Positions 1,138 to 46,035 of a DNA stretch of 64,000 bases are shown piece after piece. This DNA is from Salinilacihabitans rarus. GTDB taxonomy: Archaea; Halobacteriota; Halobacteria; Halobacteriales; Natrialbaceae. The stretch spans positions 1,302,001 to 1,366,000 of the forward strand of contig NZ_CP100762.1 of NCBI RefSeq assembly GCF_024296665.1. Reading direction: 5' to 3'. The notes below the pieces were generated by a model that was not told the DNA's origin, ran no database searches, and worked only from the letters and a program-made list of their open reading frames with translations. Position 1 is the stretch's first letter. The number at the start of each line of letters is the position of its first letter. A program made the position numbers and the translations under genes.

Positions 1138-1200
1138 GATTCGGTCTCGGGTATCGGTTTCGTTCGCCGGAACCGTCCGCTTGCCCCGTTCTCGAGCGTC

Positions 1201-3488: not shown

Positions 3489-3530
3489 CGGCGTGTTACC
3501 TCCTCGAAGTCCCATACGATTCGTCCCGAT

Positions 3531-4964
3531 TCACCCTCGCAAGACGCGGTACACGTCCTCCAGCACCAGCCACAGTTGCCGGATCACGATCTGGAGGTCG
3601 AACCACAGCGACTGTCGCCGGATGTACTCGAGGTCGTAGCGAAGTTTCGCATCCGGGTCGGTGCTCTTCGCGTCGTTGATCTGCGCCAGACCGGTCAGGC
3701 CGGGCTTGACGAACCACCGCTTGCGCCACGTGGGGGCGTCGCACTCGAGCAACTGCTCTTCGTCCACCCACGCGGCTCGCGGCCCGACGACGCTCATCCG
3801 ACCCGCGAGGATCGACCACAACTGCGGAATCTCGTCGAGGTGCGTCCGCCGCAGCGTGTGGCCGACCCGGGTGATGCGGTCGTTCTCCTCGTCGTCGGTC
3901 GGGACCGCGGACTCGTCTTCGGGGACCATCGTCCGGAACTTGTACACGCGGAAGGTGCCCCCGAACCCCGCCGTCCGCTCCTGCCCGTACAGCACCGGTC
4001 CCGGGCTGTCGAGTTTGATCGCGACCGCGATAGCCAGCACCAGCGGCGCGAGCGCCACCAGACCGACCGCGGCGAACGTCACGTCGAAGACGCGCTTGAA
4101 CAGGTGATCGATCGGGTCCCACGGTTCGAGGTCCACGTCCACCAGTTCGCCGACGTCGTCCGCCGAAACCAACACGTTGTCGGCGTACTCCCGGTGTACT
4201 TTCGCGTCCACGCCGTGCTCGTGACACGCCTCCAGCGCGCCGAAGAACTCCGCGCGGTCGGCACGCCGGAAGGCCAACACGACGGTGTCGACGTCGTACT
4301 TCACGAGGACGTCCCTGAGCCGCGATAACCCTCCGAGACGGTGCAGGACGCCCTCGTCGCGCGTCGCGGCCGTCTCGCCGACGTCGTCGCCGGCGGTCGT
4401 CCCGCCGTCCGCGGCGGGTTCGACCGGTCCGCGGTCGACGTCGGCGATCGACGGACAGAGGTAGCCGAGAAGCGGCGTCCCGACCTCCGGCGCGATCCGT
4501 TCGATCTGTTCGCGGTCGTCGCCGACGACCAGCGTTCTCCCGGGGTCGCCGGTCGGTCGGCGAATCCACACGAACCACGCGGGAATCGTGATCGCCAGTA
4601 GCCCGACGGCCATCACGAGCGTCGCTCGCGGCAGGCGGTAAGACCACTCGAAGTAACCCAGCGTCGCGAGCGCGAGTCCGCCGATGAGCACGCGTTTTTG
4701 CGCGAGAAATACGGTGTCGAGGATGCGTCGCGGGTGGGGCTTGTAGAGCGGAACGAGACTTCCCGCGACCGCGAGCACGCTCAGCGCGAGCGCCCAGTAC
4801 AGCGATTCGCCGCTCAACACCGTCACGTCGAGGCGGTTGAACAGCGGCACGTACGTCGTAAACAGCGACTGGGAGAGGCGGTGGTTCGCGACCGTAACCG
4901 CTCCGACGGTCAGTACGACGACTCCGAGGACGCTCACCGCGCGGTACCGCCAACCCGTGACCAT
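3531..4964 (-). CDS. Polyprenyl-phosphate sugar-1-phosphate transferase (exopolysaccharide initiating enzyme)
   Basis: A 477-residue enzyme of the bacterial sugar transferase family (WbaP/EpsL-like). Four to five hydrophobic segments come first, then a soluble Rossmann-like stretch, another membrane helix near FDVTFAAVGLVALAPLVL, and the conserved catalytic tail with YKFRTM, LRRTHLDEIPQLWS and SVVGPRAAW. Members move a sugar-phosphate from a nucleotide sugar to a polyprenyl or dolichyl phosphate, the first step of glycan assembly. A TATA-like element lies about 28 bases before the ATG, so the message is probably leaderless. Sugar specificity is not known. Confidence 0.88.
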   Translation of the reverse strand: MVTGWRYRAVSVLGVVVLTVGAVTVANHRLSQSLFTTYVPLFNRLDVTVLSGESLYWALALSVLAVAGSLVPLYKPHPRRILDTVFLAQKRVLIGGLALATLGYFEWSYRLPRATLVMAVGLLAITIPAWFVWIRRPTGDPGRTLVVGDDREQIERIAPEVGTPLLGYLCPSIADVDRGPVEPAADGGTTAGDDVGETAATRDEGVLHRLGGLSRLRDVLVKYDVDTVVLAFRRADRAEFFGALEACHEHGVDAKVHREYADNVLVSADDVGELVDVDLEPWDPIDHLFKRVFDVTFAAVGLVALAPLVLAIAVAIKLDSPGPVLYGQERTAGFGGTFRVYKFRTMVPEDESAVPTDDEENDRITRVGHTLRRTHLDEIPQLWSILAGRMSVVGPRAAWVDEEQLLECDAPTWRKRWFVKPGLTGLAQINDAKSTDPDAKLRYDLEYIRRQSLWFDLQIVIRQLWLVLEDVYRVLRG

Positions 4965-4989
4965 TCATCACGTACGGCACCGGCGAATA

Positions 4990-5000
4990 GTATAATGCAT
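4990..5000 (-). promoter_or_regulatory. TATA-like promoter element of the sugar-phosphate transferase gene
   Basis: TGCATTATACT-like sequence on the minus strand, about 28 bases before the ATG at 4964, in a locally A+T-rich patch. The spacing fits a leaderless haloarchaeal transcript. Confidence 0.4.
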
Positions 5001-5128
5001 TTGATGATTCCTCGTGACGGTTTACGAATGTAAACTGAATTGTGTCGTTCGAGCCACAATCACTCCGTAGAGCGTGTGTTCTCGCCGACGAATCGGTAGC
5101 CGCCGGCCGACGACCGCCCGGAACGGGG

Positions 5129-7576: not shown

Positions 7577-7874
7577 CAGTCGCCCCCCGTCCGTGACCGG
7601 TCTCGATGCGGACTCCACCGCGTTCGACCCGCGGACGGACCGCGACGCGGACGGCTACCCGCGACGACCGGTCCGCGATCGACGCGACGGCGAACGGTCG
7701 GATCCCGTGATCGATTTCGAGCCCTCATGAGACATCTTTCGGGGGCCGTTCCCGACGCGAGGGTATTGTTTGACCCCACCTACAGCCGTGGCTCCCGATT
7801 TCAGAACGACGTTACTCACGGGAGCGACGGACCCTGCGACCCGGAGGCGGCGACGGGGCGCGAAACGCGAGAGT

Positions 7875-8783
7875 TCACGGATCGAATCGTCGGGTCGCTC
7901 GCGATCTGACGTACGACGGAACGTAGCTCAGTTGTAGTTTCCCCTTTTCGAACAGGAACTGGAAGACCGATCGCGCCCGTCGGGGATCCGCCATCACCGC
8001 TTTGTGAAACGCCTTGGCTGCGTTCGATAACTCGCGGCGCCGCACGTAGGACTTGCCCAGAACGTACCGATACTGGGCGCGATACGAGGACGGTAACTCG
8101 TCACGGAACTCCGCGAGGAACGCGGTCAGTCCGGCGATCTTTTCGGCATCGTTTCCGGTGAGTTGTCCGTCGTGTCTGTGGTATCGGTACAGCGGGTCGT
8201 CGATTCCGACCAGACGGTACCCCCGGAGGAGTCGTATCCAGAGTGCGACGTCGTCCATGTACCCGATCCGTTCGTCGAACGATCCCACGTCGGCGAGTGC
8301 AGACGCCCGTACCGTCAGCCCGCCCGTTCTCGCCTCGGTCTCGACCGACGGTCCGAGGTCGGCGGGCGAGGTCATCGCGGCGGCCGCGCCGTGTACGTCG
8401 ACCGCTTTACCGTCCCGGCAGACTTCGAGAGCGACGAAGGTGCCCGCACACCGTCCGGATTCCGATCGGAGCGTTTCTATCGACCGCTCCAGAAACGTCG
8501 GTTTCAACTCGTCGTCGGAATCGAGAAACGAGACGAACTCCCCTTCGGCGGCGTCTATCCCGCTATTTCGCGCGGCCGAGGGGCCTCGATTGGTCTCGTG
8601 CGAGAGGAGCGTGACCCTGTCGTCCGCGTAGTCGTCGACGACTGCATCGGTTTCGTCGGTCGATCCGTCGTCCACGACGACGAGTTCGAAGTCCCGAAAC
8701 GTTTGCTCGAGCACGCTGTCGATCGCCCGGGGGAGGACCGCGGCCCGGTTGTACGTGGGAACGACGACGCTCGCGGTCGTCAT
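7875..8783 (-). CDS. Glycosyltransferase family 2 with helical C-terminal tail
   Basis: A 302-residue GT-A enzyme. The N-terminal domain shows SVVVPTYNRAAVLPRAIDSVLEQ and VVDDGSTDET, and the metal-binding motif is FLDSDDE near residue 90. After residue 215 the sequence becomes a helix-rich tail (YVLGKSYVRRRELSNAAKAF) that resembles a TPR repeat. The same layout recurs in the two genes at 12331-14186, so these three are paralogues. It lies 70 bases downstream of the FkbM methyltransferase, suggesting a shared transcript. Likely role: adding a sugar to the surface glycan. Confidence 0.85.
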   Translation of the reverse strand: MTTASVVVPTYNRAAVLPRAIDSVLEQTFRDFELVVVDDGSTDETDAVVDDYADDRVTLLSHETNRGPSAARNSGIDAAEGEFVSFLDSDDELKPTFLERSIETLRSESGRCAGTFVALEVCRDGKAVDVHGAAAAMTSPADLGPSVETEARTGGLTVRASALADVGSFDERIGYMDDVALWIRLLRGYRLVGIDDPLYRYHRHDGQLTGNDAEKIAGLTAFLAEFRDELPSSYRAQYRYVLGKSYVRRRELSNAAKAFHKAVMADPRRARSVFQFLFEKGKLQLSYVPSYVRSRATRRFDP

Positions 8784-8853
8784 GCGGACCGTAGGCGCAA
8801 CAGGTGCAAAAACACCGGGGGACGGATACCGGGTGGGCTACCCATGCGAGCCC

Positions 8854-9714
8854 TCACGCTGACCGTTCGGCACGGACGAAGTGCCCGCCGTCCCAGTCCC
8901 ACAGCCGTTCGGTTTCGAACCCGCGGTCGTCGAGCCAGTCGTAGAGTTCGGTCGCGGGCGCGCTGGCCTCGTAGTAACTGTCCGACGTGATCACGTCGAG
9001 GTACACGAGTCGACACCCCGCGATCGATCGCTCCAGTCCCTTCAGCACCTCGAACTCCGCGCCCTCGACGTCGACCTTGAGCACGTCGGGTGCGGGGACG
9101 TCCCCGTCGACGAGCGCGTCGCCCGTCGTCGTTTCGACCCGGATTCCGTCCGACGCCCGATCGGAGAGGTATCCGAACTCGCCCGCACCCGCGTCTTCGG
9201 TTATCTTGAGCGTCCGTTCGCCGCTTTCGCGTTCTGCCAGCAACGCACGCTGGTACACGTCGGCCGAGAGACCGTTGAGCGCGAGGTTCTCCTCGATTCG
9301 CGCGACGTTGTTCGGGTTCGGCTCGACGCCGACGACGTATCCGGACTGCAGTTTGGCCGCCGCGAAGCAGGTGTAGATGCCGATATTGGCGCCGACGTCC
9401 CAGAAGACATCGTCCGGTTTCAGGTGATCCAAGATGTCGCCGAGGACCGGGAACGACGCGTCCGTCTCCGGATACCGCTGGAACAGCAGGTACTCGTCGA
9501 CGTTCGCTATCTTGAATCGGAGCGTCAGTCCGTGGCTCGTGATCCGCTCTTCGGCGGGAACGAACGGCGAGAGGACCGCTCGATAGGCCTCCGACGCCTT
9601 CGTTCCGAGTTCGTACTGCCGTAACGGATCCTTGACCGGTTCCGGGACGTATCGAACCCCCTCCCTGACCGCGGATCCCACCCCGACGAGCAACTTCGCG
9701 AACTCCATACCCAC
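8854..9714 (-). CDS. FkbM family methyltransferase (copy 1)
   Basis: A 286-residue SAM-dependent methyltransferase. The cofactor-binding motif DVGANIGIYT lies at residues 106-115, followed by the acidic GVEPNPNN strand end and the family's PDVLKVDVEGAEFEVLKG signature. FkbM-type enzymes usually O-methylate a sugar or polyketide hydroxyl, so methylation of the surface glycan is the natural inference. It is closely similar to the gene at 11294-12181, which faces the other way across the deacetylase. A TTTAAATAAGT promoter element lies just upstream, giving a leaderless message. Confidence 0.85.
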   Translation of the reverse strand: MGMEFAKLLVGVGSAVREGVRYVPEPVKDPLRQYELGTKASEAYRAVLSPFVPAEERITSHGLTLRFKIANVDEYLLFQRYPETDASFPVLGDILDHLKPDDVFWDVGANIGIYTCFAAAKLQSGYVVGVEPNPNNVARIEENLALNGLSADVYQRALLAERESGERTLKITEDAGAGEFGYLSDRASDGIRVETTTGDALVDGDVPAPDVLKVDVEGAEFEVLKGLERSIAGCRLVYLDVITSDSYYEASAPATELYDWLDDRGFETERLWDWDGGHFVRAERSA

Positions 9715-10096
9715 TGCTGGCCGCGGACCTACTTATTTAAACCCGGCATATCGCCTCGATCGCGAGGTCGACGTCCATCGGTGCGCGGTAAATGGTTCAT
9801 ACAAAGTCGAGAAGCGGGCTCATCGGGCTGTTACGAGCCGAACTCGGACGCGATACGTCACAGACGAACGCGGAGGCGGGCGACTCCGACGGTGTCCAGC
9901 GCGCTGTGCAGCGGATGCGGCGCGATGTAATACTGAAGTAACAGGGCGGCGTCGGTTGAAATCGATCGCGAAGAGATGTTCCTAAACGTCCGGTTCGGAC
10001 GACGCTCGCTCGAAGCGCCGTCGCGTTCGATATCGGCTGTACCCGTGCGAGCGACGCCGAGGTCCGAAGTCGGTCGCGTCGCTACTACACCTCCTC
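9715..10096. promoter_or_regulatory. Divergent intergenic region with TATA box for FkbM copy 1
   Basis: This 382-bp gap separates the minus-strand FkbM gene from the plus-strand deacetylase. The minus-strand TATA-like element TTTAAATAAGT is at 9731-9741, about 22 bases before the FkbM ATG. No convincing TATA box for the deacetylase and no coding region were recognised in the rest. Confidence 0.45.
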
Positions 10097-10861
10097 ATGA
10101 TTCCGAAACAGCGTCTCCTCCGGGGCCTTAACGCCCGTACGAACTTCGTTCATCTGTTCGCGGACTGTCACCCGGTCGTCCTCCAGTACCACTCCGTGAA
10201 CGGAACCGGGTGGGACGACGTTCCAGCCGACTGGTTCCGGGCGCACCTCGACTGGCTACACGCGCGGTACGACGTCGTCGACCTCCCCGACGTGATCTCC
10301 CCGACGACGGGTAAAGGGGTCGCGCTCACGTTCGACGACGGACTGCGGAGTTTCCACCACACGGTCTTGCCGATCCTCCGGGAGTACGACGCGCCGGCGA
10401 CGGTCTATCTCATCGGCGAGGCAGTTCTCGACCCGAAAGGCGAGTACATGCCGGTCGAGTCGGATTACATGACTCGGGATCAGTTGACCGAGATCGTCGA
10501 CGACCCGCTGGTCACCGTCGGAAACCACACTCGGAGCCATCCGAAGCTCTCCGAACTCGATCGAGACGCGATCGAGTCCGAAATCACCGAGGGAAAGGAG
10601 ATCATCGAGGAAGAACTCGGCGTCGACGTCGATCGGTTCTGCTACCCGTTCAACGACTACGATGCGACCGCCGTCGACGTGGCCCGCAGACACCACGCGA
10701 CGGCGGTCACAAGCGGCGGCGAGCAGCGACTCATCACGTCCGAGACCGATCCGCACAGGATTCCGCGAACGAGAGGCGAAAAACCACCGACAGAAGTGCG
10801 ATGGCTCGTCCCCGACCTGCCGACGCGACTCGTGGGGGGCTACCGGCGACTCTTCGGGTGA
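10097..10861 (+). CDS. Polysaccharide deacetylase (NodB-like)
   Basis: A 254-residue carbohydrate esterase 4 protein. It has the metal-binding TFDDG motif at residues 78-82 and the H-x3-H zinc ligands in NHTRSH (144-148), followed by RFCYPFNDYDATAVDVAR, which matches the family's later motif. These enzymes remove acetyl groups from N-acetylated sugars, using a divalent metal. No signal peptide is visible, so it probably works on a cytoplasmic or membrane-linked intermediate. It stands alone between two inverted FkbM copies. Substrate not known. Confidence 0.87.
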   Translation: MIPKQRLLRGLNARTNFVHLFADCHPVVLQYHSVNGTGWDDVPADWFRAHLDWLHARYDVVDLPDVISPTTGKGVALTFDDGLRSFHHTVLPILREYDAPATVYLIGEAVLDPKGEYMPVESDYMTRDQLTEIVDDPLVTVGNHTRSHPKLSELDRDAIESEITEGKEIIEEELGVDVDRFCYPFNDYDATAVDVARRHHATAVTSGGEQRLITSETDPHRIPRTRGEKPPTEVRWLVPDLPTRLVGGYRRLFG

Positions 10862-11293
10862 GATACGGTGCTATCGTCGAAGTCGAGATGGTGTCGGCGT
10901 TGAACGGTGCGTTCTCTCGATTGGTTGGCTGACTTCGGTATCCGTTCTCGGAACTGTTTGACGCCGGATCACGTGCGGCCGTATCGGACGCCGCACCAGG
11001 ACGACGGTATCATCCGACGCGCCAAACGGCAGGACAGCCGCCAGGAGATCGCCGATGCAGAAACCGGGTCCGTACCGAACCGGACACCGGAATCGTATCT
11101 CTCATCCGGACGTCCAAGCCCTCGTTACCGGAACGGAAACTCGGCGAGATACCGGCGGGAGTTACCGTTCGCGGTCGTCGGAAACGAGAACGACGCCCTT
11201 CGTACGACCGACGAGCGGCGTTTCGTCGACCGGATGACGATTACGATGCTGTAGCCGCCGGGTAATATTGTAGACCGGGCGGCAAGGGTCGGT
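10862..11293. promoter_or_regulatory. Intergenic region with TATA box for FkbM copy 2
   Basis: 432 bp between the deacetylase and the second FkbM gene. The element TAATATT at 11263-11269 is about 27 bases before the ATG at 11294, fitting a leaderless transcript. Open frames in this stretch (for example 10907-11254) have atypical composition for this genome and no recognisable motif, so I do not call a gene. No complete gene is seen. Confidence 0.4.
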
Positions 11294-12181
11294 ATGAACG
11301 TCGTGGATATTATCACCAATTCGGCCCCCGGGATCAAGCGAGGTGTTCGATACGTCCCGGAGCCGGTCAAGTCCCCGCTTCGTCAACTCGGCGTCAAATC
11401 GATCCTCTCGGACGCCTATCGGCGGCTCCTCGACCCGTTTTTCCCGACCGAACAGCGAATCACCGCCCACGGGCTCACGGTGCGGTTCAAAATCGAGGAC
11501 CCGGAGGAGTATTTCGTCTTTCAGAAGTACCCCGAGACGGACGCGTCGTTTCCGGTCCTCGGCGACATCTTGACTCGTCTAGAGCCGGACGACGTCTTCT
11601 GGGACGTCGGCGCCAATATCGGCATCTACACCTGCTTCGCGGCGGCCAAACTGCAGTCCGGCGGCGTCATCAGTATCGAACCCAACCCGAACAACGTCGC
11701 GCGAATCGAGGAGAACCTCGCGCTCAACGGCCTCTCGGCGGAGGTTCACGAGCGCGCCCTGATGGCCGAACGCGACGAGGGCGTGCTACGGATCTACGAG
11801 GACGCGGACGCCGGCGCGTTCGGATTCCTCTCCGAGGACGGATCCCCCGTCCGGAGCGAGTCGCTCACGATCGACCCGACGGAGAGCGTTCGCGTCGAAA
11901 CGACGACGGGCGACGCGCTCGTCGACGGGGGCGTCCCCACGCCGGACGTCCTCAAAATCGACGTCGAAGGCGCCGAACTCGACGTCCTGCGAGGGCTGGA
12001 ACGAACGATCACGCGGGAAGGAGTTCGGGTGATCTACGTCGACGTGATCACGTCGGACGAGTTTTACGACCGACCCATCGCCCCGGACGAAGTGTACGAG
12101 TGGTTCGACGACCGCGGGTTCGAAACCGAACGGCTGTGGGACTGGGACGGCGGGCACTTCGTCCGCTGCGAGCGGCCCTAG
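11294..12181 (+). CDS. FkbM family methyltransferase (copy 2)
   Basis: A 295-residue SAM-dependent methyltransferase and a close paralogue of the gene at 8854-9714. It shares long near-identical blocks, including RYVPEPVK near the N-terminus, YPETDASFPVLGDIL, the SAM motif DVGANIGIYTCFAAAKLQSG and the C-terminal RLWDWDGGHFVR. The copies diverge most at the N-terminus and around residues 155-200, where this one has about ten extra residues. The pair probably arose by inverted duplication, and the enzymes may methylate different glycan positions. It is followed by two glycosyltransferases on the same strand. Confidence 0.85.
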   Translation: MNVVDIITNSAPGIKRGVRYVPEPVKSPLRQLGVKSILSDAYRRLLDPFFPTEQRITAHGLTVRFKIEDPEEYFVFQKYPETDASFPVLGDILTRLEPDDVFWDVGANIGIYTCFAAAKLQSGGVISIEPNPNNVARIEENLALNGLSAEVHERALMAERDEGVLRIYEDADAGAFGFLSEDGSPVRSESLTIDPTESVRVETTTGDALVDGGVPTPDVLKIDVEGAELDVLRGLERTITREGVRVIYVDVITSDEFYDRPIAPDEVYEWFDDRGFETERLWDWDGGHFVRCERP

Positions 12182-12291
12182 CCGGTGGACGTGTCGTTCC
12201 GTCGCGCGAAGCTACGCGAACCGTCCGACTGCCGACCGGCCGCGCGGCCGGCGACCGGTCGCCCAAGGATCGTTTGTTTCACAGTAGCGTA

Positions 12292-12298
12292 CATATAA
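12292..12298 (+). promoter_or_regulatory. TATA-like element before the tandem glycosyltransferases
   Basis: CATATAA lies about 33 bases before the ATG at 12331, so transcription would start about ten bases before that ATG and serve the two overlapping GT2 genes. Assignment rests on sequence and spacing only. Confidence 0.35.
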
Positions 12299-12330
12299 CA
12301 ATGCGAGTCCCATTCGACGTCCACCGGTGA

Positions 12331-13278
12331 ATGGCCCGCGTCAGCGTTATTACTCCCACATATAACGACGGCCAGTTTATCCCCCGAGCGATACACAGCG
12401 TCCTCGGGCAGACGTACGACGACGTCGAACACGTCGTCGTCGACGACGCGTCGACCGACGAGACGTCCCGCGTACTCGATCTCTACCACGATCCGCGGAT
12501 CAAGACGGTGACGCGGGACACGAACGGGGGGCTCGCAGCGGCGCGAAACGACGGGCTCAGGGCGGCGGAGGGCGAGTACGTCGTCTTCCTCGACGCGGAC
12601 GACGAACTGCTCCCACACGCGATCGAGACACTTCTGGAACTCGTCGAAGCCGGCGAGTGGATCGCGGTGTGTCCCTCCCAGCTGTGGATCTGGCGGGACG
12701 GAACGACGGAAGTCGATCCCGCGCCGCCGCGACCGATAACGAGCGAGGACATGCGAACCGACGGGATGCACGTCGTGGGCGGCGTCGGCGGGATGATGGT
12801 CGAGGCGGAGACGCTCGAGGACGTCGGCTCGTTCGACGAGGAGCTCCGGTACCTCGAAGATTACGACGTCTGTCTTCGACTCGCCGAAGCGCACGCGCTC
12901 CGCGGAACCGACGAAATACTGTACCTCTACCACCGAGGCTACGAGGGGCAGTTGACGACGCACAAGGACGAGTATCTGAGCGAACGACGGCTGTTTCTGA
13001 AGAAGAACCGGGATCGGCTCTCGAACCGACACCGGTCGAAGCACTACTACCGACTGGCTCACGCACACGCCGAGACCGGCCGGATGGACGAAGCGCTGTG
13101 GAACCTCCTCGACGCGATCGCCGCGTACCCGTACAGGATCCCGTACTACTACTACTTCCTCTCGATCGTCCTGGGTGAGCGGGCGTACGGTGTGGCCTCG
13201 AAAGCCCACGAAGCGATCAAGCGGCGGGTCGTCTCGGTGCTCCCTCGGAACCGACCCGGGCCACGACGAAACAGATGA
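12331..13278 (+). CDS. Glycosyltransferase family 2 (tandem copy A)
   Basis: A 315-residue GT-A enzyme. It starts with VSVITPTYNDGQFIPRAIHS, has VVVDDASTDET near residue 35 and the metal-binding motif FLDADDE near residue 87. The last 100 residues form a helix-rich tail with KHYYRLAHAHAETGRMDEAL, which resembles a TPR repeat, and an unusual run of tyrosines near residue 273. It overlaps the next gene by four bases (ATGA), so the two are translationally coupled. It is clearly a paralogue of the next gene and of the one at 7875. Donor sugar unknown. Confidence 0.86.
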   Translation: MARVSVITPTYNDGQFIPRAIHSVLGQTYDDVEHVVVDDASTDETSRVLDLYHDPRIKTVTRDTNGGLAAARNDGLRAAEGEYVVFLDADDELLPHAIETLLELVEAGEWIAVCPSQLWIWRDGTTEVDPAPPRPITSEDMRTDGMHVVGGVGGMMVEAETLEDVGSFDEELRYLEDYDVCLRLAEAHALRGTDEILYLYHRGYEGQLTTHKDEYLSERRLFLKKNRDRLSNRHRSKHYYRLAHAHAETGRMDEALWNLLDAIAAYPYRIPYYYYFLSIVLGERAYGVASKAHEAIKRRVVSVLPRNRPGPRRNR

Positions 13279-14186
13279 GCACCGTCAGCGTCGTCACCCC
13301 GACGTACAACCACGCGGACCTCCTCCCCCGGGCGATAGAGAGCGTCTCCGAGCAAACGTACGACGACGTCGAACACGTCGTCGTCGACGACGCGTCGACC
13401 GACGGTACGAGGGGACTGATGGCCGACCACGACGATCGGGTCCGGTACATCAGAAAGGCGGAAAACGACGGGCTCAGCGAGACGCGCAACGTCGGCATCC
13501 GGAACGCGAGCGGCGACCGTATCCTCTTTCTAGACGCGGACGACGAACTCAGAGCGGATGCGATAGAGAGCCTGATCGAGCATCTCGACCGGGGGGAGTT
13601 CGTCGGCGTGATCCCCTCGAAAGAGAAAGTAGAGACGGACGGGAGCGTCAGGTTCGAGATCCTGGAGCGGGGCGTCGTAACCGCCGACGATCTGCGCGAG
13701 GCGAACGTGCTCGGCGGCATCGGGGGCGGCCTGTTCGAACGGGCCGCGCTCGAAGCGGTCGGCTGCTTCGATGCGGAACTCAGACACAGCGAGGATTACG
13801 ATCTGTACCTCCGTCTCGCCGAGCGGTACTCGCTGTACGCCGTCGACCAGCCCCTGTACGTCCACTACACGGGGTTCGAAGACCAGCTGACGTCCGAACG
13901 GGGACACTACGAACACAGGGATAGCATCAGACGGTTCCTGCGGAAGCACGAAGGTCGGCTGTCGTCGTACCGACTCGCCGAGCGCCACTACAATCTGGCC
14001 CACGTCTGCGCTCGACAGAACGACCCGGGAGAGGCGGTCGGGGAGTTGAAACGCGCGATCGCGGCCTTTCCGTACCGACCGCCGTACTACTACTACCTCG
14101 TCGCGACGAAAGCCGGGTCGAGACAGTACGACGCGGCGCGAACGGTACACGAGACGGTCCGGGAGTGGCTCTCGAGGGTCACGTGA
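13275..14186 (+). CDS. Glycosyltransferase family 2 (tandem copy B)
   Basis: A 303-residue paralogue of the preceding gene. It has VSVVTPTYNHADLLPRAIES, the identical EHVVVDDASTDGT segment, FLDADDE near residue 87, and a C-terminal helical tail with RHYNLAHVCARQNDPGEAV followed by a tyrosine cluster. Its ATG overlaps the stop of the upstream gene, and its own stop overlaps the convergent GT4 gene by eight bases. Tandem duplication followed by divergence would let each add a different sugar to the same glycan. Confidence 0.86.
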   Translation: MSTVSVVTPTYNHADLLPRAIESVSEQTYDDVEHVVVDDASTDGTRGLMADHDDRVRYIRKAENDGLSETRNVGIRNASGDRILFLDADDELRADAIESLIEHLDRGEFVGVIPSKEKVETDGSVRFEILERGVVTADDLREANVLGGIGGGLFERAALEAVGCFDAELRHSEDYDLYLRLAERYSLYAVDQPLYVHYTGFEDQLTSERGHYEHRDSIRRFLRKHEGRLSSYRLAERHYNLAHVCARQNDPGEAVGELKRAIAAFPYRPPYYYYLVATKAGSRQYDAARTVHETVREWLSRVT

Positions 14187-15363
14187 CGCTGCGGTACTCC
14201 CGGAGGAGGCGGTCGAGAACTCGTTCGGGTTCGAACCGTTCGAGTCGCGCCTCGCACCGCTCTCGGAGCGTCGACAGCGACCCGGGGTCGTCGTAGACCG
14301 ACGCCAGTTTCGCGCGCAAGTCGTCCGGGTTCCCCGGTTCGAACGTCAGACCCGCGTCCCCGACGACCCACGGGGGACCGCCGACGTCGGAGACGATGGC
14401 CGGCGTACCGTACTGCATCGATTCGAGGACGGCGCGGCCGAACGGCTCCGGCCAGGTCGCCGGGTGGACGAAGACGTCGGCCTCGTCGTAGTACCGCGGG
14501 AGGTTCGAGTGGGCGATCCAGCCGTGGAAGGTGACCCGGTCTGTCGCTCCGGTCGACTCCGCGTACGTTTCGAGCGCCTCCCTGTCGGGCCCGTCACCGA
14601 CGACGTGTACGCGAATCGGACGTTCGAGGCGCGCGGTCGCAGCGAGGAGCGTCCGGAACCCCTTGTACTCCTCCAGACGGGCGACGGCGAGGACGTCGAA
14701 CGCCGTCTCGTCGAACCGATCGGTCCCCGACGGGGGAGCGTCGGCCGCGACGAACCCGGGCTCGTAAAAATTCGGAACGACCGTGATCTCGACGTCGAAT
14801 CCGACCGTCGCGTACACGTCTTTTACCGCCGGACTCTGCGCGAACAACTTGTCCACGCGGTCGACCAGTCGCGGAACGACGTTCGTTCGACCGACGTACA
14901 CCGGCGATTTCAGCAGCTTTCGTACCATTCCGGTGTCGTCGTGGACGAACTTGCGGTAACTGGAACAGTGCTCGTAACAATCTGGCGTCATCTCCCCCTG
15001 GTTCGTACAGAACAGGGCGTACGAGTTGAGCCTCCCCACGACCGGCGTCTCGCCGTCTCTTCGGTACAGCCCGGCTGCGGGGAGCAAGATCGGCGCGAAC
15101 ACGTGAAAGACGTCACACTCGTCGTGGCGATCCATGAGTCGTGCGACCTCGCGAATCCACCGCACGGCGTGTGCCGATCGATCGATCGAACGCTCGACGA
15201 CGGAGTACGGTCGCTCCGTCGGCAACTCGTTTCGTTCCCGGTCGATCGTCAGCAGCGTCACCGTGTGACCGCGCTCCGAGAGCGCTCGGGCCAGGGCGTC
15301 GAGGCTGACGTTCGATCCGCCGCCGCTGACGGAGAGCTTCTCACACAGGATCGTGACGTGCAC
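14179..15363 (-). CDS. Glycosyltransferase family 4
   Basis: A 394-residue GT-B enzyme. The N-terminal acceptor loop is VSGGGSNVSLDALARAL, and the C-terminal donor domain contains VLAVARLEEYKGF and the E-x7-E stretch EPFGRAVLESMQYGTPAIV. Between the domains is a cysteine-containing segment (CTNQGEMTPDCYEHC, about residues 113-127), also seen in a different form in the next gene; it could bind metal or form disulfides. It converges with the tandem GT2 genes. Likely role: extension of the surface glycan. Confidence 0.85.
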   Translation of the reverse strand: MHVTILCEKLSVSGGGSNVSLDALARALSERGHTVTLLTIDRERNELPTERPYSVVERSIDRSAHAVRWIREVARLMDRHDECDVFHVFAPILLPAAGLYRRDGETPVVGRLNSYALFCTNQGEMTPDCYEHCSSYRKFVHDDTGMVRKLLKSPVYVGRTNVVPRLVDRVDKLFAQSPAVKDVYATVGFDVEITVVPNFYEPGFVAADAPPSGTDRFDETAFDVLAVARLEEYKGFRTLLAATARLERPIRVHVVGDGPDREALETYAESTGATDRVTFHGWIAHSNLPRYYDEADVFVHPATWPEPFGRAVLESMQYGTPAIVSDVGGPPWVVGDAGLTFEPGNPDDLRAKLASVYDDPGSLSTLRERCEARLERFEPERVLDRLLREYRSVT

Positions 15364-15432
15364 GGTCGATCACCGTTCGGTAGCTTGGGGGGTCGGATCG
15401 GTGCGTCTCACGACGGGTCCGTGACACACGGG

Positions 15433-16677
15433 CTACAGTTCCACACTGATCTCCGACCCGCGTCCCCGATCGGAGACGGCTCCGTAAATTTCTAGGAGAC
15501 CCCCGAGGACGCGTTCCCTGTCGTACTCCCTCGCCTTCCGTTTTCCGCCCCGTGAGAGGGCTCGAAGGCGATCACCGCGAACGAGTCGGAGGATCGCCTC
15601 GCGGAAGCCCCCGACGGAGCCGTCGGTAGTCACCCCGCCCTCTCCGATGATCTCCGCCACGGCTCCGTACTCGCTGCTCACGATCGGCGTCCCCGTCGCC
15701 AGCGCCTCCAGATATACGCGAGCCAGCGGCTCCTCCCAGATGCCGGGGTAGACGAAACAGTCGTGCTCGGCGTACACGGGCGGCAGTTCGGCGTTCGGGA
15801 CGAACCCCGCGAACTCCACGAGGTGGTCGACGCCTCGCTCGGCCGCCTGCTCCCGGAGCGTCGATTCCAGTCCGCCGGTTCCGACGACCGTGAGTTCGAA
15901 GTCGAACGCGCCGTCGGTCGCGGCCTCCAGGATCGGGATCAGCTTCTTGACTCCCTTGCGCTCTATGAGTGAGCCGACGTACAAGAGCCCGTACGGCTCC
16001 GCGAAGTCGCTTCGGTGATCGATGGAGAACTCCTCGTCGACGGGATGCGGAACGACGTGGATGCGGTCGCGGTCGTACCCGAACCGGACGTAGTTCTCTC
16101 GAACGTGGTCGGAAGGGGCGCGGAACGCGTCGACGTGCGCGAGGCGTCGTTCGGCCGACCGGACCAATCGAAGGGAAAAGAGCTGGCTCGCCGTCCGGTA
16201 ACAGTATCCGTACTCCTCGTTTTCGAATCCCGTGCGGGCGATGCAGTTCAGACACTTCGGGATCGACTTGCGCTCGCACTGTCGCTCGTTCAAGTAGAGC
16301 AAATCGTTCTTCGGGCAGACGCCCTGGTACGCGTTCAGCGTGACGACGGTCCCCGCATCCGTCTCCTTCCCAACCGCCGCGATCGCGGGAATCAGCGACA
16401 TCAGGTAGCTGTGGACGACGTCGTACTCGCCGAACTCGTCGAGTCTGGCGGTGACCTCCTCGTTCAACCGCGTGTCCGTGTGCGGGTGACGGCTGTTCCC
16501 GGTGAGATATCGGTACTCGACCCCGGGCGTTTCGAGGTCGTCCGACGGCGTTTCGGCGCAGTACACGCACACGTCGTGGTCCGTCTCCGCGAGTCCGTTC
16601 ACGACCTGCGTCGCCGTGTGAGTCGCGCCGGTCCCCTCCGCCGTCGGAAAGTGGGGATGGATAAAGGCGATCCGCAT
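15433..16677 (-). CDS. Glycosyltransferase family 4 with cysteine-rich insert
   Basis: A 414-residue GT-B enzyme. It begins MRIAFIHPHFPTAEGTGATH, continues through a cysteine-rich stretch near residues 120-157 (Cys in GVCPKND, RQCERK, KCLNC and YCYR), and ends with GLLYVGSLIERKGV and the E-x7-E region EEPLARVYLEALATGTPIV. The five or six cysteines are unusual for a haloarchaeal protein and suggest a metal site or disulfides. The order of genes suggests transcription with the GT4 gene downstream, 69 bases away. Substrates not predictable. Confidence 0.84.
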   Translation of the reverse strand: MRIAFIHPHFPTAEGTGATHTATQVVNGLAETDHDVCVYCAETPSDDLETPGVEYRYLTGNSRHPHTDTRLNEEVTARLDEFGEYDVVHSYLMSLIPAIAAVGKETDAGTVVTLNAYQGVCPKNDLLYLNERQCERKSIPKCLNCIARTGFENEEYGYCYRTASQLFSLRLVRSAERRLAHVDAFRAPSDHVRENYVRFGYDRDRIHVVPHPVDEEFSIDHRSDFAEPYGLLYVGSLIERKGVKKLIPILEAATDGAFDFELTVVGTGGLESTLREQAAERGVDHLVEFAGFVPNAELPPVYAEHDCFVYPGIWEEPLARVYLEALATGTPIVSSEYGAVAEIIGEGGVTTDGSVGGFREAILRLVRGDRLRALSRGGKRKAREYDRERVLGGLLEIYGAVSDRGRGSEISVEL

Positions 16678-16781
16678 CGCCGACGGGTACCACGCGGGTT
16701 TCTATAATAGGCCGTCACGACGTCCGTGACAGTGTTCGGATCCGATGCGTGCCGGCGGGAGCGTTCCTCGACGGCTCGGAC

Positions 16782-17921
16782 TCACGGGGAACCGCGGCGA
16801 ACGGCACGTTCGAACGCCTCGACGAGTATCTCCTGCGTGTAGCCGTTTTCGACGATCGCCCGCCCTCGCTCGCCGAACCGCCGTCGTTTCGTCGGATCGG
16901 CCGCCAGTTCCCGAATCGACCGGCAAAACCCCTCGACGTCGTCCGGGTCGTGGAGGTATCCGCACTCGCCCTCGGCTACGGTGTGTTCGATCCCGCCGAC
17001 CGAACTGCCGACGACCGGAAGCCCCACGGCCATCGCTTCGACGACGGTGATGCACAGGCCCTCGAACCGCGACGGCTGGACGTAGACGTCGATCGAGTTC
17101 AGGAACCGCGGCAGGTCACGAACCGCACCGAGCAACTCGACGTTTTCGAGCCCCGAGGACTCGATCCGGGACTCCAGCGCCGGTCGCTCGGGGCCGTCGC
17201 CGGCGATCCGGAAGACGACCCCGCTCCCGGCGAGTTCCTCCGCGACGGCGAGGAGCGTCCGGTAGTTCTTTTGCTCGGACAGCACCCCGACGCTTCCGAC
17301 GACCACCGGGTCGGCGTGGCCGTGTTCCCGCCGTTCGAACTCGCTCAGCGGGACGCCGGCGATCGGAACGGTTCGGACGAACTCGTCGGGCAACTCGAAC
17401 CGCTCGCGGAGCATCTCCGCGACCGGCTCCGAGTCGGCCAGCACCACGTCGCTCAGCCGACACGTGGCGCCGAACAGCCGCTTCCTGAGGGCCGATTTGA
17501 ACCGTTCGTTGTGTTGCCACGTGGCGACGACCGCGTCGCGGTTGAAGATTCCGGCGAGTCGGACGAGGAGGACCGAGTGAAAGAGCGAGCCGACGATGAC
17601 GTCCGCGCCGGCCACCGCCGAAACGAGCCTCGAAACGTCCCGAACGCTCCCGATCCTCGTACAGTCGAGGATCGTCCGATCGGCGGGGAGCCGTCGGTCG
17701 ACGAACGTCTCCTCGTAGCCGGCGACGGTCACGACGGTGACGTCGTATCGATCGTCGTCCAGTCCGTCGAGCAACCGGCACATTCCGACTTCGGCCCCGC
17801 CCGTGTCGAGGGCGTTGATCACGTAGACCAGGTTGCACTCGTCCGGTTCGCCGTCCGTCCCGGAAGCGCCTTCCCCCGAGCCCCGCGGAATCGTGCCCGG
17901 CGTGTGGCTGAACGCGTCCAT
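16782..17921 (-). CDS. Glycosyltransferase family 4
   Basis: A 379-residue GT-B enzyme. I start it at the ATG at 17921 (MDAFSHT), because everything further upstream in this frame is the antisense shadow of the epimerase. The acceptor loop is INALDTGGAEVGMCRLLDGL (about residues 34-53), and the donor domain has VGSVGVLSEQKNYRTLL and SRFEGLCITVVEAMAVGLPVV. It starts five bases after the stop of the epimerase, so the nucleotidyltransferase, epimerase and this gene form a tight operon: make the sugar nucleotide, change it, transfer it. Confidence 0.86.
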   Translation of the reverse strand: MDAFSHTPGTIPRGSGEGASGTDGEPDECNLVYVINALDTGGAEVGMCRLLDGLDDDRYDVTVVTVAGYEETFVDRRLPADRTILDCTRIGSVRDVSRLVSAVAGADVIVGSLFHSVLLVRLAGIFNRDAVVATWQHNERFKSALRKRLFGATCRLSDVVLADSEPVAEMLRERFELPDEFVRTVPIAGVPLSEFERREHGHADPVVVGSVGVLSEQKNYRTLLAVAEELAGSGVVFRIAGDGPERPALESRIESSGLENVELLGAVRDLPRFLNSIDVYVQPSRFEGLCITVVEAMAVGLPVVGSSVGGIEHTVAEGECGYLHDPDDVEGFCRSIRELAADPTKRRRFGERGRAIVENGYTQEILVEAFERAVRRGSP

Positions 17922-17926
17922 GTCGA

Positions 17927-18931
17927 CTACGCGATGGGACTCGTCCGCGACTCCATCACCAGCGGTTCGTACCAGTCGCGGTTGGCTCGGTACCAGTCGA
18001 CGAACCGGGCGACGCCCTCGCGGATGCCCGTCGTCGGTTCGTAGTCGAGCAGGTCGCGGGCTTTCGAGACGTCGGCGTGGGTGTGCCGGGCGTCGGCCTG
18101 GCGGGCGTCCTCGTAGACGGGGGTGACGTCCGCGCCGGTCTCGGCGACGACGTGGTCGGCGAGTTCTTCGATCGTGATCGTGCCGGTGGAGCCGACGTTC
18201 ACCACCTCGCCGTCGGCGGCGGCGGTTTCGAGCAACGCGAGGTTCGCCTCGACGACGTCGTCGACGTAGGTGAAGTCCCGGGTCTGCCGGCCGTCGCCGT
18301 AGATCACCGGCGGCTTCCCGTCGAGACACCGCGAGGTGAAGTTCGTGATCGCCATGTTCGGGCGCATCCGCGGCCCGTACACCGTGAAATACCGCAGGCT
18401 CACCGTCGGCACGTCGTAGATCGTCTCCCACACCCGACAGTAGTGCTCCGCCGCCAGTTTCGTCACGCCGTACGGACTCTGCGGAGTGGTCGGGTGCTCC
18501 TCGTCGTACGGCAGATACTCGACCTCGCCGTAGACCGACGAGGACGAGGCGTTGACGAACCGGCGGACGCCGTACTCCTCGGCCGCGAGCAGGAGCGTCA
18601 CCAGTCCCGTCGTGTTGATCTCGTGTGGTTTCATCGGGTTCTCGACGCTCGTCCTGACGCCCGCCTGCGCGGCCTGGTGGAAGACAAAGTCGACGTCACG
18701 GGTCGAGAACAGGTCGGCGACGAGGTCCGCGTCGGTGATCGACCCCTCGACGAACTCGAAGCGGTCGCCGCCGACCTCGCGACACCGCTCGAGGTTGCGC
18801 TCCTTGATCCGGAGGTCGTAGTACGGGTCCATCGCGTCGAGGACGACGACCTCGTGTCCGCGTTCGAGCAGTCCGCGGGCGACGTGCGAACCGACGAACC
18901 CCGCGCCGCCGGTGACGAGAGCGCGCGCCAT
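17927..18931 (-). CDS. NAD-dependent UDP-sugar 4-epimerase/dehydratase
   Basis: A 334-residue extended SDR enzyme. It has the NAD-binding motif TGGAGFVGSH at residues 7-16, the serine-rich SSSSVYG active-site stretch, and the catalytic YGVTK (Tyr-x3-Lys). The YYDLRIKERNLERC and QAAQAGVRTSVENP segments are typical of UDP-glucuronate or UDP-glucose 4-epimerases. It lies six bases after the nucleotidyltransferase and five before a GT4 gene. Likely substrate: a UDP-hexose or hexuronate for N-glycan synthesis, which is inference from family and context. Confidence 0.88.
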   Translation of the reverse strand: MARALVTGGAGFVGSHVARGLLERGHEVVVLDAMDPYYDLRIKERNLERCREVGGDRFEFVEGSITDADLVADLFSTRDVDFVFHQAAQAGVRTSVENPMKPHEINTTGLVTLLLAAEEYGVRRFVNASSSSVYGEVEYLPYDEEHPTTPQSPYGVTKLAAEHYCRVWETIYDVPTVSLRYFTVYGPRMRPNMAITNFTSRCLDGKPPVIYGDGRQTRDFTYVDDVVEANLALLETAAADGEVVNVGSTGTITIEELADHVVAETGADVTPVYEDARQADARHTHADVSKARDLLDYEPTTGIREGVARFVDWYRANRDWYEPLVMESRTSPIA

Positions 18932-18937
18932 CGACGA

Positions 18938-19708
18938 TCAGTCCGTTCCGGCTTCCGACGCCCGTTCGGCCGCCGCCGGTCCGACGACGGGTTCGGCGTC
19001 GCCCCGCAGCAGTTCCTCCGCTCTGTCGCGGTCGTCGGGGTAGCCGACGTCGATGCGCCAGCCGTCCATCCGGATGGCGTCGATCGTCCGGCCCGACTGG
19101 ATCAGGAGGTCGATCGCGTCCGGCAGTTCGTACTCGCCCCGATCGGAGGGCTGGACGAGGTGACAGGCGTGGAAGATGGCGGGCGTGAACGTGTAGAAAC
19201 CGGTCATCACGAGATTCGACGGTGGCTCGTCGGGTTTCTCCATCACCTCGACGATCTCGCCGTACTCGTTCGTATCCAGCACCCCGTACCGCGAGGCTTC
19301 CTCGTAGGGGACTTCCTCGACGAGGAACGCGGCGTCGGCGCGCTCCTCGCGCTGGCGGTTGATCACGTCGCCGAGGTTCGCCCGGAAGACGTTGTCCCCG
19401 AGCATCAACACGAACTCGTCGTCGACGTGGGGTTCGGCCTGGAGGATGGCGTGGGCGAGGCCCAACTGCTCGCGCTGGTGGGCGTACGTGATCGGCACCC
19501 CCTCGTACGCGTCGCCGTAGCGCTCGATGATCTGCTCTTTCATGTAGCCGACGACGACGATCAGTTCGTCGGCGCCGATCTCGACGAGGTTGTCGAAGAC
19601 GTCCTCGACGATGGGCTGGCCGTCGACTTCGACGAGCGCTTTCGGCTTGTCTTCCGTCAACGGCCGGAGGCGGGTACCCCTGCCGGCGGCGAGAACGACG
19701 GCTTGCAT
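18938..19708 (-). CDS. Sugar nucleotidyltransferase (AglF-like UTP--glucose-1-phosphate uridylyltransferase family)
   Basis: A 256-residue nucleotidyltransferase. The signature AAGRGTRLRPLT at residues 7-18 binds the nucleotide and metal, KPKALVEVDGQPIVE follows, and the second metal-binding Asp is in MLGDNVF near residue 110. The family joins a sugar-1-phosphate to UTP or dTTP; the haloarchaeal relatives named AglF act in N-glycosylation. It is the first gene of a three-gene operon with the epimerase and a GT4. The choice between UDP and dTDP products is not settled. Confidence 0.87.
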   Translation of the reverse strand: MQAVVLAAGRGTRLRPLTEDKPKALVEVDGQPIVEDVFDNLVEIGADELIVVVGYMKEQIIERYGDAYEGVPITYAHQREQLGLAHAILQAEPHVDDEFVLMLGDNVFRANLGDVINRQREERADAAFLVEEVPYEEASRYGVLDTNEYGEIVEVMEKPDEPPSNLVMTGFYTFTPAIFHACHLVQPSDRGEYELPDAIDLLIQSGRTIDAIRMDGWRIDVGYPDDRDRAEELLRGDAEPVVGPAAAERASEAGTD

Positions 19709-19864
19709 ACGCTACCACCATTCCGAATTCGGGCAAGTAGGTGAGCCCTGTAACTGCCGGGTGCTGGAGAGCGGGTCGCGGTACGGCGGAGCCACGTTGA
19801 AAGCGTTAACTGTCGAGACGGAGTACGGAAACGCGTCGCGGCGCCGAGACGGCGCCGTCTCGCA

Positions 19865-20566
19865 ATGAACCGAAACGCAGGCGTCACCGAACTGATCCGG
19901 GCCGCCCTCCCCGAGTGGTCCGTGCCGGTCTTCGAGTTCGCGGCGTTGCTCGGCGACGCGTTCGTTGCGGCCGGCGTGTTGCTCGCGTTCGTCGGCGCCG
20001 ACGCGTACCGCTGCGCCCGGCGCGGGTCGGGCCGTCCCGTCTCCGACAGGGCCGCGTTCGTGCTGGCGGTCGTGCTCGGCGGCCTCGCGCTCACGCTCGT
20101 GTTGAAGGCGGCGTTCGGCTTCTCGCGTCCGCCCTCGTCGCTGCAGGCCGTCCCGCGCGAGGGGGAGGGGTTCCCGAGCGGCCACACGATGGCGGCGACG
20201 GTCCTCTGGACCGCGCTCGCGCTCTGGGGCGGGCGCACGGCGACCCGGCGAGGGGTCGCGGTCGCGGCGGTCGCCGTCGGCGTCGTCGGCCTCTCGCGGC
20301 TCGCGCTCGGCGTTCACTACCTCGTCGACGTGCTGGCGTCGGTCGGGTTTGGTCTCGCCTACCTGTTTCTCGCGGCGACGCTGACGGGCCGCGAACCGGC
20401 GCGGGCGTTCGCCGGCGCGGCGCTGCTCGGGGCGCTGGCGCTGGCGGCGACGGACGGGAGCGCCGACGGATGGCTGGCGTTCGTCGGCTGCGTCGGGGGT
20501 GCCGCGGGCTGGTGGGTCCTCGTCCGCTCGCGGGTGCGGCGCCTGTGGGTCTCGGCGGTGCGGTGA
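19865..20566 (+). CDS. PAP2 family membrane phosphatase
   Basis: A 233-residue membrane protein with about six hydrophobic segments and the three-part phosphatase signature: K81-x6-RP (KAAFGFSRP), PSGH at residues 104-107, and SR-x5-H (SRLALGVH, 144-151). These enzymes dephosphorylate lipid phosphates such as phosphatidate or polyprenyl diphosphate. Its position next to a glycan cluster makes recycling of a dolichyl-type carrier attractive, but that is inference. It starts 156 bases from the divergent nucleotidyltransferase gene. Confidence 0.87.
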   Translation: MNRNAGVTELIRAALPEWSVPVFEFAALLGDAFVAAGVLLAFVGADAYRCARRGSGRPVSDRAAFVLAVVLGGLALTLVLKAAFGFSRPPSSLQAVPREGEGFPSGHTMAATVLWTALALWGGRTATRRGVAVAAVAVGVVGLSRLALGVHYLVDVLASVGFGLAYLFLAATLTGREPARAFAGAALLGALALAATDGSADGWLAFVGCVGGAAGWWVLVRSRVRRLWVSAVR

Positions 20567-20731
20567 CCCACGTCGCGCCGTAAACGGGCGTCTATCGCCG
20601 AGTAGCCGCGTCGTTCTCGACGGCAATTTACTGATAACAAAGACCGTCTTCGGGTTATGACGGTTTGCGTCGCACAGACCTAGCAACAAAAGACCCTCAC
20701 GGGACACGTCAAACGAATTACGACAATCAGG

Positions 20732-22330
20732 ATGTCAGCACGATCACGGTTCACGTCAGTTCTCCTCGCGGCGATGCTGGTGCTGTCGACGGTGGCGATC
20801 GCCACCCCGGCGGCCGTCGCACAGGAGCAAGACGGAACACAGGCCGTACAGACGCTCGCTGACGGCGAGGAGCTCTACCTCGTCTTCGGCGCGAACCTCG
20901 AGGACATGACACTCGAGGAGTACATCGAAACGCACGCGTTAGGCGAGGTCGACCAGGAGACGTCCGCCGACGTCATCCAGTACCAGGACGTCGACCAGGT
21001 GAACATCAACCAGCAGGGCAACGCCACCTCGATCTCGATCGACAACGGGACGGCAACGGCCGTCCAGGAGGCGAACCAGCGGAACTCGAACTCCCAGGTC
21101 GGCGAGGCCACCGCCGAGAACCGGGCCGGTGACGTCTCGAACACCCTGTTCGAGGACGTCGGCACGGTCTACGTCGTCGTCGGCGACAGCGGCCAGCAGT
21201 TCGAGGGCTGGGGAATCGCCGACAAGAAAGGCGACAAGGCCGAGACGGTCACGCAGGAGGCCCAGGCGACGATCACGCAGTACCAGGAAGTCGAGCAGGC
21301 GAACGTCAACCAGCAGAACACGGCGTTCGCGATCGCCGAGAACGAGAGCGAAGCGACCGCCATCCAGCAGTCCTACCAGTACAACGAGAACCTGCAGGAA
21401 GGCGCCGCGAACGCGACGAACGTCTACCAGACCGACGGCGACGGCGATGGCGACGGTGCCAAGTACAAGAAAGCGCCCGACCACTACCAGATGACCTACG
21501 ACTGGCACGCGGGCGAGCCCGCCAGCGCGGTCCAGTTGGCCGACGCCACAGTCGAGCAGGCCCAGGAGGTCGATCAGGCCAACGTGAACGAACAGACGGC
21601 CGCGGTCGCCATCGCCGTCGGCGAGAACGCGACCGCGACCGCCGTCCAGTTCACCGAACAGAGCAACCTCAACGCGCAACTCGGCACCGCCGAGGCCATC
21701 AACGTGCTCGAGGCCACCTCCGGGATGAACGTCGCGACCGCCGGCGCCGCCGCCGACGAGATCGTCAGTCAGGAGACCGAGACGGTCGGCAGCCACGACA
21801 AGAAGAAAAAGTCCGACGGCGACGGCGACGGCGGCGCCGCCCAGCAGAGCAACGCCGAGGTGACCCAGTACCAGAGCGCCGAACAGCTCAACGTCAACAT
21901 GCAGAGTTCGGCGATCGCCATCGCGACCAACGGCAGCGAGGCGACCGCCGTCCAGCTGGCCTACCAGCAGAACTACAACGCGCAGGTCGGGTACGCCGAC
22001 GCGGTCACCGTCGGCGGATCGAGCCACGGCGGCGTCGTCTACACCGAGGAGACGAGCGTGACCCTCGCCGGCGAGAGCAGCAGCGACTCGCTTGTCACGT
22101 TCGACTTCGCGGGCGAGAACTACCAGACCAACGACGTCGACCAGCAGGCAAACGCCCAGATCGAGCAGGCCCAGTTCGTCGCCCAGGAGAACTTCAACGA
22201 ACAGCAGGGTGCCGTCGCCGTCGCGGACGGCGAGGGAGAGACCGCCAGCGCGGTCCAGTTGAGCATGCAGGAGAACGAGAATCTGCAGTACGCCGCCGTC
22301 GGCGCCGTGACCGTGCCGGCTACCCCGTAA
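20732..22330 (+). CDS. Secreted protein with five curlin-like Gln/Asn/Ala-rich repeats
   Basis: A 532-residue protein with a Sec signal peptide (residues 1-30, hydrophobic core LLAAMLVLSTVAIATPAAVA). After an acidic stretch come five imperfect repeats at about 78-130, 177-230, 270-325, 373-427 and 472-528, spaced 93-103 residues apart. Each has a V-x-Q-x-Q-x-V-x-Q-x-N-x-N-x-Q unit, then an AIA-rich strand, ATA-x-Q, and x-Q-x-N-x-N-x-Q. Regular Gln/Asn ladders with small residues resemble curli CsgA repeats and beta-solenoid amyloids. Linkers are rich in Asp, Gly and Lys. There is no C-terminal anchor. A T-run terminator follows. Function unknown; an extracellular fibre or matrix is the best guess. 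Confidence 0.7.
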   Translation: MSARSRFTSVLLAAMLVLSTVAIATPAAVAQEQDGTQAVQTLADGEELYLVFGANLEDMTLEEYIETHALGEVDQETSADVIQYQDVDQVNINQQGNATSISIDNGTATAVQEANQRNSNSQVGEATAENRAGDVSNTLFEDVGTVYVVVGDSGQQFEGWGIADKKGDKAETVTQEAQATITQYQEVEQANVNQQNTAFAIAENESEATAIQQSYQYNENLQEGAANATNVYQTDGDGDGDGAKYKKAPDHYQMTYDWHAGEPASAVQLADATVEQAQEVDQANVNEQTAAVAIAVGENATATAVQFTEQSNLNAQLGTAEAINVLEATSGMNVATAGAAADEIVSQETETVGSHDKKKKSDGDGDGGAAQQSNAEVTQYQSAEQLNVNMQSSAIAIATNGSEATAVQLAYQQNYNAQVGYADAVTVGGSSHGGVVYTEETSVTLAGESSSDSLVTFDFAGENYQTNDVDQQANAQIEQAQFVAQENFNEQQGAVAVADGEGETASAVQLSMQENENLQYAAVGAVTVPATP

Positions 22331-46033: not shown

Positions 46034-46035
46034 AA

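Follow-up and report, generated by a model that had tools for sequence, protein, structure and literature searches.

A secreted five-repeat protein with conserved Gln/Asn ladders and a small single-repeat partner in Natrialbaceae: a candidate two-component extracellular amyloid-like system

FapC of Pseudomonas is built from imperfect repeats of fixed length with conserved Asn/Gln, joined by long flexible linkers of variable length, with a constant number of repeats and a related minor subunit (PMC12822426). Curlin repeats follow the published definition X6QXGX2NX10, about 22–23 aa (PMC3521004, PMC10192328), and structure prediction gives confident stacked solenoids for most curlins (PMC10192328). 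The described archaeal amyloid proteins that we found are sheath proteins of methanogens, which are extracellular, amyloid or amyloid-like, and composed of imperfect repeats (PMC6242892, PMC10593813). In a 2012 survey, one archaeal protein is mentioned as having curli-like repeats (PMC3521004). Amyloid staining is reported for haloarchaeal biofilms: the matrix of Haloferax volcanii is Congo red/ThT-positive and a putative amyloid, for which the subunit gene is not established and HVO_1403 has been suggested (PMC4180959).

The window analyzed here, a 64,000-nucleotide stretch of the Salinilacihabitans rarus genome, encodes a secreted 532-aa protein, hereafter the large subunit (Table 1). Its N-terminal signal peptide, ending near ...TPAAVAQ, is the only strongly hydrophobic segment by hydropathy. 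Past this segment the best 19-aa window reaches only 1.03, and the protein therefore has no membrane anchor. A first-pass annotation had described a signal peptide and five repeats with two Q-x-N-x-N-x-Q units each, which our analysis reproduced: the ORF contains ten exact units, at residues 89, 116, 189, 216, 282, 310, 385, 412, 485, and 513, compared with a mean of 0.04 and a maximum of 2 when the mature sequence was shuffled 20,000 times. The two units within a repeat are separated by 27–28 residues, the repeats are 52–59 aa long in the window protein, and they are spaced by 100, 93, 103, and 100 residues. In repeats 1–4 a short strand of the A.A/AIA type precedes ATAVQ or ATAIQ (repeat 1 is SISIDNGTATAVQ), and repeat 5 is looser (AVAVADGEGETASAVQ). 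The linkers are more charged than the repeats (20% D+E and 5% K+R vs 13% and 0.7%); the first-pass annotation proposed that they would keep the protein soluble in salt. N-glycosylation sequons had no overall excess in the large subunit (6 vs 5.4 expected) and sit at the turns of repeats 2–4 in at least half of the relatives. The conserved N-terminal element ELYLVFGANLEDMTLEEYIETHA is possibly a cap.

Table 1 Features of the locus. Coordinates are positions in the window unless a locus handle is given; residue numbers refer to the large subunit.
Feature	Coordinates	Strand	Basis or remark
Glycan-biosynthesis island between large-subunit gene and small partner	175..20566		Pfam; same split in G016, G017, G085, G110
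Conserved element GATAACAAAG upstream of large-subunit gene	20633..20642	+	Motif or core 8-mers in 40–41/52 relatives' upstream regions
Large subunit, secreted five-repeat Gln/Asn-ladder protein, 532 aa	20732..22330	+	ORF, translation, 99/125 family genomes
Signal peptide, residues 1–31, Sec-type, without twin arginine in the window copy	20732..20824	+	Sequence and hydropathy; putative cleavage site
Conserved N-terminal element ELYLVFGANLEDMTLEEYIETHA, residues 42–70	20855..20941	+	Invariant L48 Y49 L50 F52 G53 L61 E62 H68
Repeat 1, residues 75–131	20954..21124	+	
Conserved element in linker 1–2, FEDVGTVYVVVGDSGQQFEGWGIADKK, residues 139–166	21146..21229	+	Invariant F140 V143 G144 V146 G151 F157 G159 W160 D164
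Repeat 2, residues 174–231	21251..21424	+	
Repeat 3, residues 267–325	21530..21706	+	
Repeat 4, residues 370–427	21839..22012	+	
Repeat 5, residues 470–521	22139..22294	+	
Enlarged Natrinema small partners	L065:4934-5899; L089:7509-8477; L091:6506-7411	-	
Small-gene leaders	L136 about 12240-12372	-	Also leaders in L061–L116

Sequence searches of Pfam, NCBIfam, and PDB with the large subunit found no relative, and besides the small partner described below its own genome contained no paralog by sequence. An NCBIfam match to a ClpXP enhancing factor (E 0.01) fell far under the cut-off and was rejected as compositional. PDB matches to the PhoQ sensor (E 0.007, two-repeat profile) and auracyanin (E 0.11, small-repeat profile) were weak, involved Q/N-rich stretches, and were judged to be chance. 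The curlin profile PF07012, proposed as a check by the first-pass annotation, matched neither the large subunit nor 29 relatives and hit nothing in the genome even at E 10, while an E. coli control scored over the cut-off. Profile-profile comparison of the large subunit with curlin repeats (hhalign) scored below shuffled controls. Elsewhere in the family, two Natrialbaceae genomes encode genuine curlin-repeat proteins, which score above the PF07012 cut-off (L137, G028:C1:1329075-1329671, -; L138, G025:C2:945391 onward, +). These have a signal peptide and about ten 19-aa units (DADVDQRNxAxVxQDGKNN), and their genes are separate from the large-subunit gene. The archaeal protein in the 2012 survey (PMC3521004) was perhaps of this kind.

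Conservation and length statistics were calculated from 50 non-redundant relatives (<90% identity). Repeats 1–4 were 54–59 aa and repeat 5 was 50–52 aa (SD 0–0.8), while the linkers varied in length, with 5 to 69 aa for linker 2–3. Mean conservation was 98% at the 55 Gln/Asn positions of the ladder, compared with 64% at the remaining repeat positions and 51% in the linkers, where Gln and Asn themselves averaged only 57%. The repeats alternate strictly between two faces. The inward face consists of 53% Q/N, 39% AVILG, and 0.3% D/E; the outward face has 26% D/E and is poorly conserved. So little acid on the inward face is striking for a halophile and indicates a buried polar face. We conclude that the five-repeat Gln/Asn feature is genuine and maintained by purifying selection. 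The nearest repeat from another genome bore the same number in 250/250 cases, and in 235/250 when only genomes with <50% identity were compared. Because repeats match their same-numbered counterparts across genomes, the five-repeat order is ancestral with no recent tandem expansion.

AlphaFold2 modeling, also suggested by the first-pass annotation, predicted every repeat as all beta with pLDDT of about 70–90, and we consider the beta character of each repeat a confident prediction. The full protein, modeled from a 29-sequence alignment, had a mean pLDDT of 55 and a pTM of 0.46, with linkers mostly below 50. Strands within a repeat were about 20, 8, and 25 residues long, the last being shorter in repeat 5. 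The same strands appeared when a two-repeat construct was modeled from 50 sequences (pLDDT 68, pTM 0.39). Stacking between repeats was not established in either model at these pTM values. Foldseek comparison of both models with the PDB returned just four matches with E up to 10, of which three were functional amyloids: CsgA 8c50 and FapC 9nqd and 9u4u. All three were weak (E 0.57–0.8, FapC 0.78–0.80; TM-score <0.1). We treat them as a lead only, because unrelated models in a viral model library reached lower E-values with equally poor superposition.

Whole-genome searches identified large-subunit orthologs in 99/125 Natrialbaceae genomes and 26/29 genera. Most were full length with 50–60% identity. 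Named records that assign the family to Natrialbaceae came from Natrinema, Natrialba, Haloterrigena, Natronococcus, Halopiger, Halobiforma, Natronorubrum, and others. A class-wide search beyond Natrialbaceae recovered only a handful of divergent members, in three further families. The large subunit is thus an old, nearly core surface protein of Natrialbaceae. In genus g33 of family f4, long ORFs (mostly 800–1150 aa) matched the large-subunit profile only near the N-terminus, in the signal-peptide region (E around 1e-4 to 1e-5); these are possibly S-layer proteins. A viral or tail-fiber origin was considered and rejected, with viral contigs containing no relative and the Foldseek comparison with viral models being uninformative.

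The neighborhoods of relatives revealed a genetic partner that was absent from the first-pass annotation. One to four small genes lie upstream of the large gene in divergent orientation and encode secreted proteins, typically 95–190 aa (MKRTLTITLTVALIGSLMFMGFAGTAAA...), each with roughly one copy, in degenerate form, of the Q/N repeat. A small gene was present at 47/59 loci bearing the large gene, a count of loci and not of species, with certain genomes represented twice. The 12 loci without one were mostly divergent-subfamily or second copies, and L096 lies at a contig end; two (L073 and L082) were ordinary orthologs, with L073 split by an island. Among the 125 genomes, 87/99 with the large gene and 0/26 without it had a small gene (Fisher p 5e-18, counting genomes as independent of shared ancestry). 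The small-protein profile matched repeat 1 of the window protein with E 2.7e-9, a value that the Q/N/A-rich composition may flatter. The window genome has a single small partner (G000:C1:1295836-1296240, -), located outside the window and 26.5 kb from the large gene. It adjoins a 742-aa ORF, presumably CDC48-type from our reading of its sequence, that is 96% identical to the equivalently placed ORF of L066. Some small partners in Natrinema are enlarged to about 260–270 aa by a non-repeat domain inserted between the halves of the Q/N repeat.

The small genes also share a 5' leader that begins GGGCAACGCGYCAC and whose end base-pairs with an arm of the GTGATGCGTGCC type directly before the ATG. 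Closing stems of at least 6 pairs were found in 46/47 leaders vs 41% of mononucleotide shuffles (mean z -3.1). The exact leader motif is unique within the window genome, and an Rfam search of the leaders had no match. RNAalifold on a sequence-only alignment of the leaders returned no structure, the 3' arms being misaligned. Upstream of the large-subunit gene itself, positions 20633–20671 of the window contain GATAACAAAG and GGTTTGCGTCGCA, about 60–100 nt 5' of the ATG and conserved across genera. These are a candidate operator/promoter, distinct from the small-gene promoter.

Small and large genes are side by side in most other relatives, whereas a glycan island splits the pair in at least five genomes from several genera: that of the window, G016 (where the island was recognized only in part), G017, G085, and G110. 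By Pfam, the island encodes epimerases, glycosyltransferases, a bacterial-type sugar transferase, FkbM methyltransferases, a polysaccharide deacetylase, an NTP transferase, and PAP2. The glycan neighbors reported by the first-pass annotation are real, and other genera have them at the same locus, but they are restricted to some lineages. Either the locus is a hot spot for glycan islands or the split is an ancestral arrangement lost elsewhere. Among the islands compared (the window and L146–L153), the sugar transferase was conserved and the glycosyltransferases were more variable. Further along the window, positions 46001–48000 have a GC content of 0.50 vs about 0.70 around them and contain a 400-aa ORF (46643–47845, +), possibly a recently acquired element.

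We lean, with some reserve, towards interpreting the locus as a two-component extracellular amyloid-like fiber or matrix system of Natrialbaceae, in which the large subunit probably works like curli or Fap fibers while being unrelated to both by sequence. This interpretation builds on the 98% conserved ladder, the strict two-face alternation, and the combination of fixed repeat length with variable linkers; on repeats predicted as all beta in a protein without a membrane anchor and with FapC-like architecture (PMC12822426); on the co-occurring small partner, divergent upstream at 47/59 loci, and the recurring glycan-island linkage; and on three of the four PDB fold matches being functional amyloids, each of them weak. 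Against it count the AlphaFold2 models, in which stacking is not established, unlike those of most curlins (PMC10192328), as well as the weakness of the fold matches, the lack of sequence kinship to any known amyloid, and a co-occurrence statistic that ignores shared ancestry.

Under the amyloid-like interpretation, the large subunit would leave the cell by the Sec route. Each 52–59-aa repeat would fold into strands A (about 20 aa), B (about 8 aa), and C (about 25 aa), and strands A and C, which share the same Gln/Asn face, may form two in-register rungs. With five repeats, about ten rungs would result, with continuous hydrogen-bond ladders of Gln and Asn side chains and an Ala/Val core. The acidic face would be directed towards the brine, and the charged variable linkers would loop out as in FapC. 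Subunits could add end to end through exposed edge rungs, with the small single-repeat proteins serving as a putative nucleator, cap, or minor subunit, a part comparable to that of CsgB or FapB, and we infer a matrix or adhesion function for the system as a whole.

A rival reading is a non-polymerizing extracellular beta-solenoid, namely an adhesin, cell-surface coat, or S-layer-associated protein with polar ladders inside one or several stable domains, no end-to-end assembly, and small proteins that are paralogous surface proteins. The absence of a membrane anchor and the long variable linkers, which would be unusual in one continuous solenoid, make this less likely in our view, even with a repeat order so strictly kept (same-number nearest repeat in 250/250) and conserved non-repeat elements that could cap a solenoid. 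Glycan neighbors and sequons at the turns of repeats 2–4 would suit a surface glycoprotein, while the co-inherited single-repeat partner more closely resembles a nucleator or minor-subunit arrangement. We judge it very improbable that the large subunit is a Q/N-rich extracellular polymer, intrinsically disordered or phase-separating, in which the repeats mirror composition instead of a fold, since 55 position-invariant Q/N, strict two-face alternation, and fixed repeat length are unexpected for such a protein, despite its Q/N/A-rich composition and about half of its residues having pLDDT <50. A true csg-type curlin homolog diverged past recognition is hardly credible: the alternating Gln/Asn strands, the weak fold match to CsgA 8c50, and the existence of curlin-repeat proteins in two Natrialbaceae genomes would fit, but PF07012 is unmatched, the profile comparison is below shuffled controls, the rung is 27–28 aa without a Q.G..N.A turn vs about 22–23 aa in curlin, and L137/L138 are encoded by separate genes.

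Returning to the amyloid-like interpretation, we tentatively put forward the locus as an undescribed archaeal class of functional amyloid, independent of curli and Fap. Such a class might comprise a five-repeat major subunit and divergent single-repeat nucleators, with an uncharged Gln/Asn/Ala core and acidic outer face suited to saturated brine, linked in several genera to a surface-polysaccharide island and contributing to a protein-glycan biofilm matrix. In line with the first-pass annotation, which knew of no haloarchaeal system of this form, our literature searches, partial in coverage, returned no description of the family. The locus provides a concrete gene pair that is conserved across most Natrialbaceae and yields a sharp structural prediction. 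If the large subunit polymerizes, it would represent an independent invention of a Gln/Asn-ladder fiber and a test of amyloid cores at multimolar salt.

Among the known systems, curli CsgA/CsgB (8c50) resemble the locus in strands that alternate and direct Gln/Asn and small hydrophobic residues inward, in the five repeats of E. coli CsgA, and in the pairing of CsgA with CsgB, a smaller related protein. Unlike curli, the large subunit has no Q.G..N.A turn, a rung of 27–28 aa, long linkers, and a partner with a single repeat. Archaea have no outer membrane of the kind that CsgG serves. Under the published repeat definition (PMC3521004, PMC10192328), the large subunit does not qualify as a curlin, because its unit is Q...Q.N.N.Q, recurring 27–28 aa apart within 52–59-aa double units. 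Of the amyloid/curlin reading in the first-pass annotation, a secreted, repetitive, beta-rich protein with a conserved uncharged Gln/Asn face was retained and curlin kinship was not.

Methanogen sheath proteins, compared from the published papers alone, are likewise archaeal and extracellular with imperfect repeats. MspA/SH of Methanospirillum hungatei and MspA of Methanosaeta form tubular sheaths, and for MspA no partner or operon is described. We do not equate the Haloferax volcanii matrix with the large subunit, the family being almost confined to Natrialbaceae.

The closest architectural analog of the large subunit is FapC (9nqd, 9u4u), a better one than curlin and, with the family-wide conservation and the divergent small partners, an addition to the first-pass annotation. 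No FapC chain was among the PDB sequence matches up to E 10 with two profiles. The large subunit differs in having five repeats of about 58 aa vs three, no fap operon, and no outer membrane, and FapC is a fiber with a solved Greek key repeat, whose rungs stack within and between monomers, while the large subunit is known here from sequence and predicted strands. Both are nevertheless secreted proteins with fixed Q/N repeats and variable linkers (SD 0–0.8 aa vs 5–69 aa in the large subunit), and models of long-linker FapC (PMC12822426) resemble our AlphaFold2 model in their confident repeats and poorly predicted linkers.
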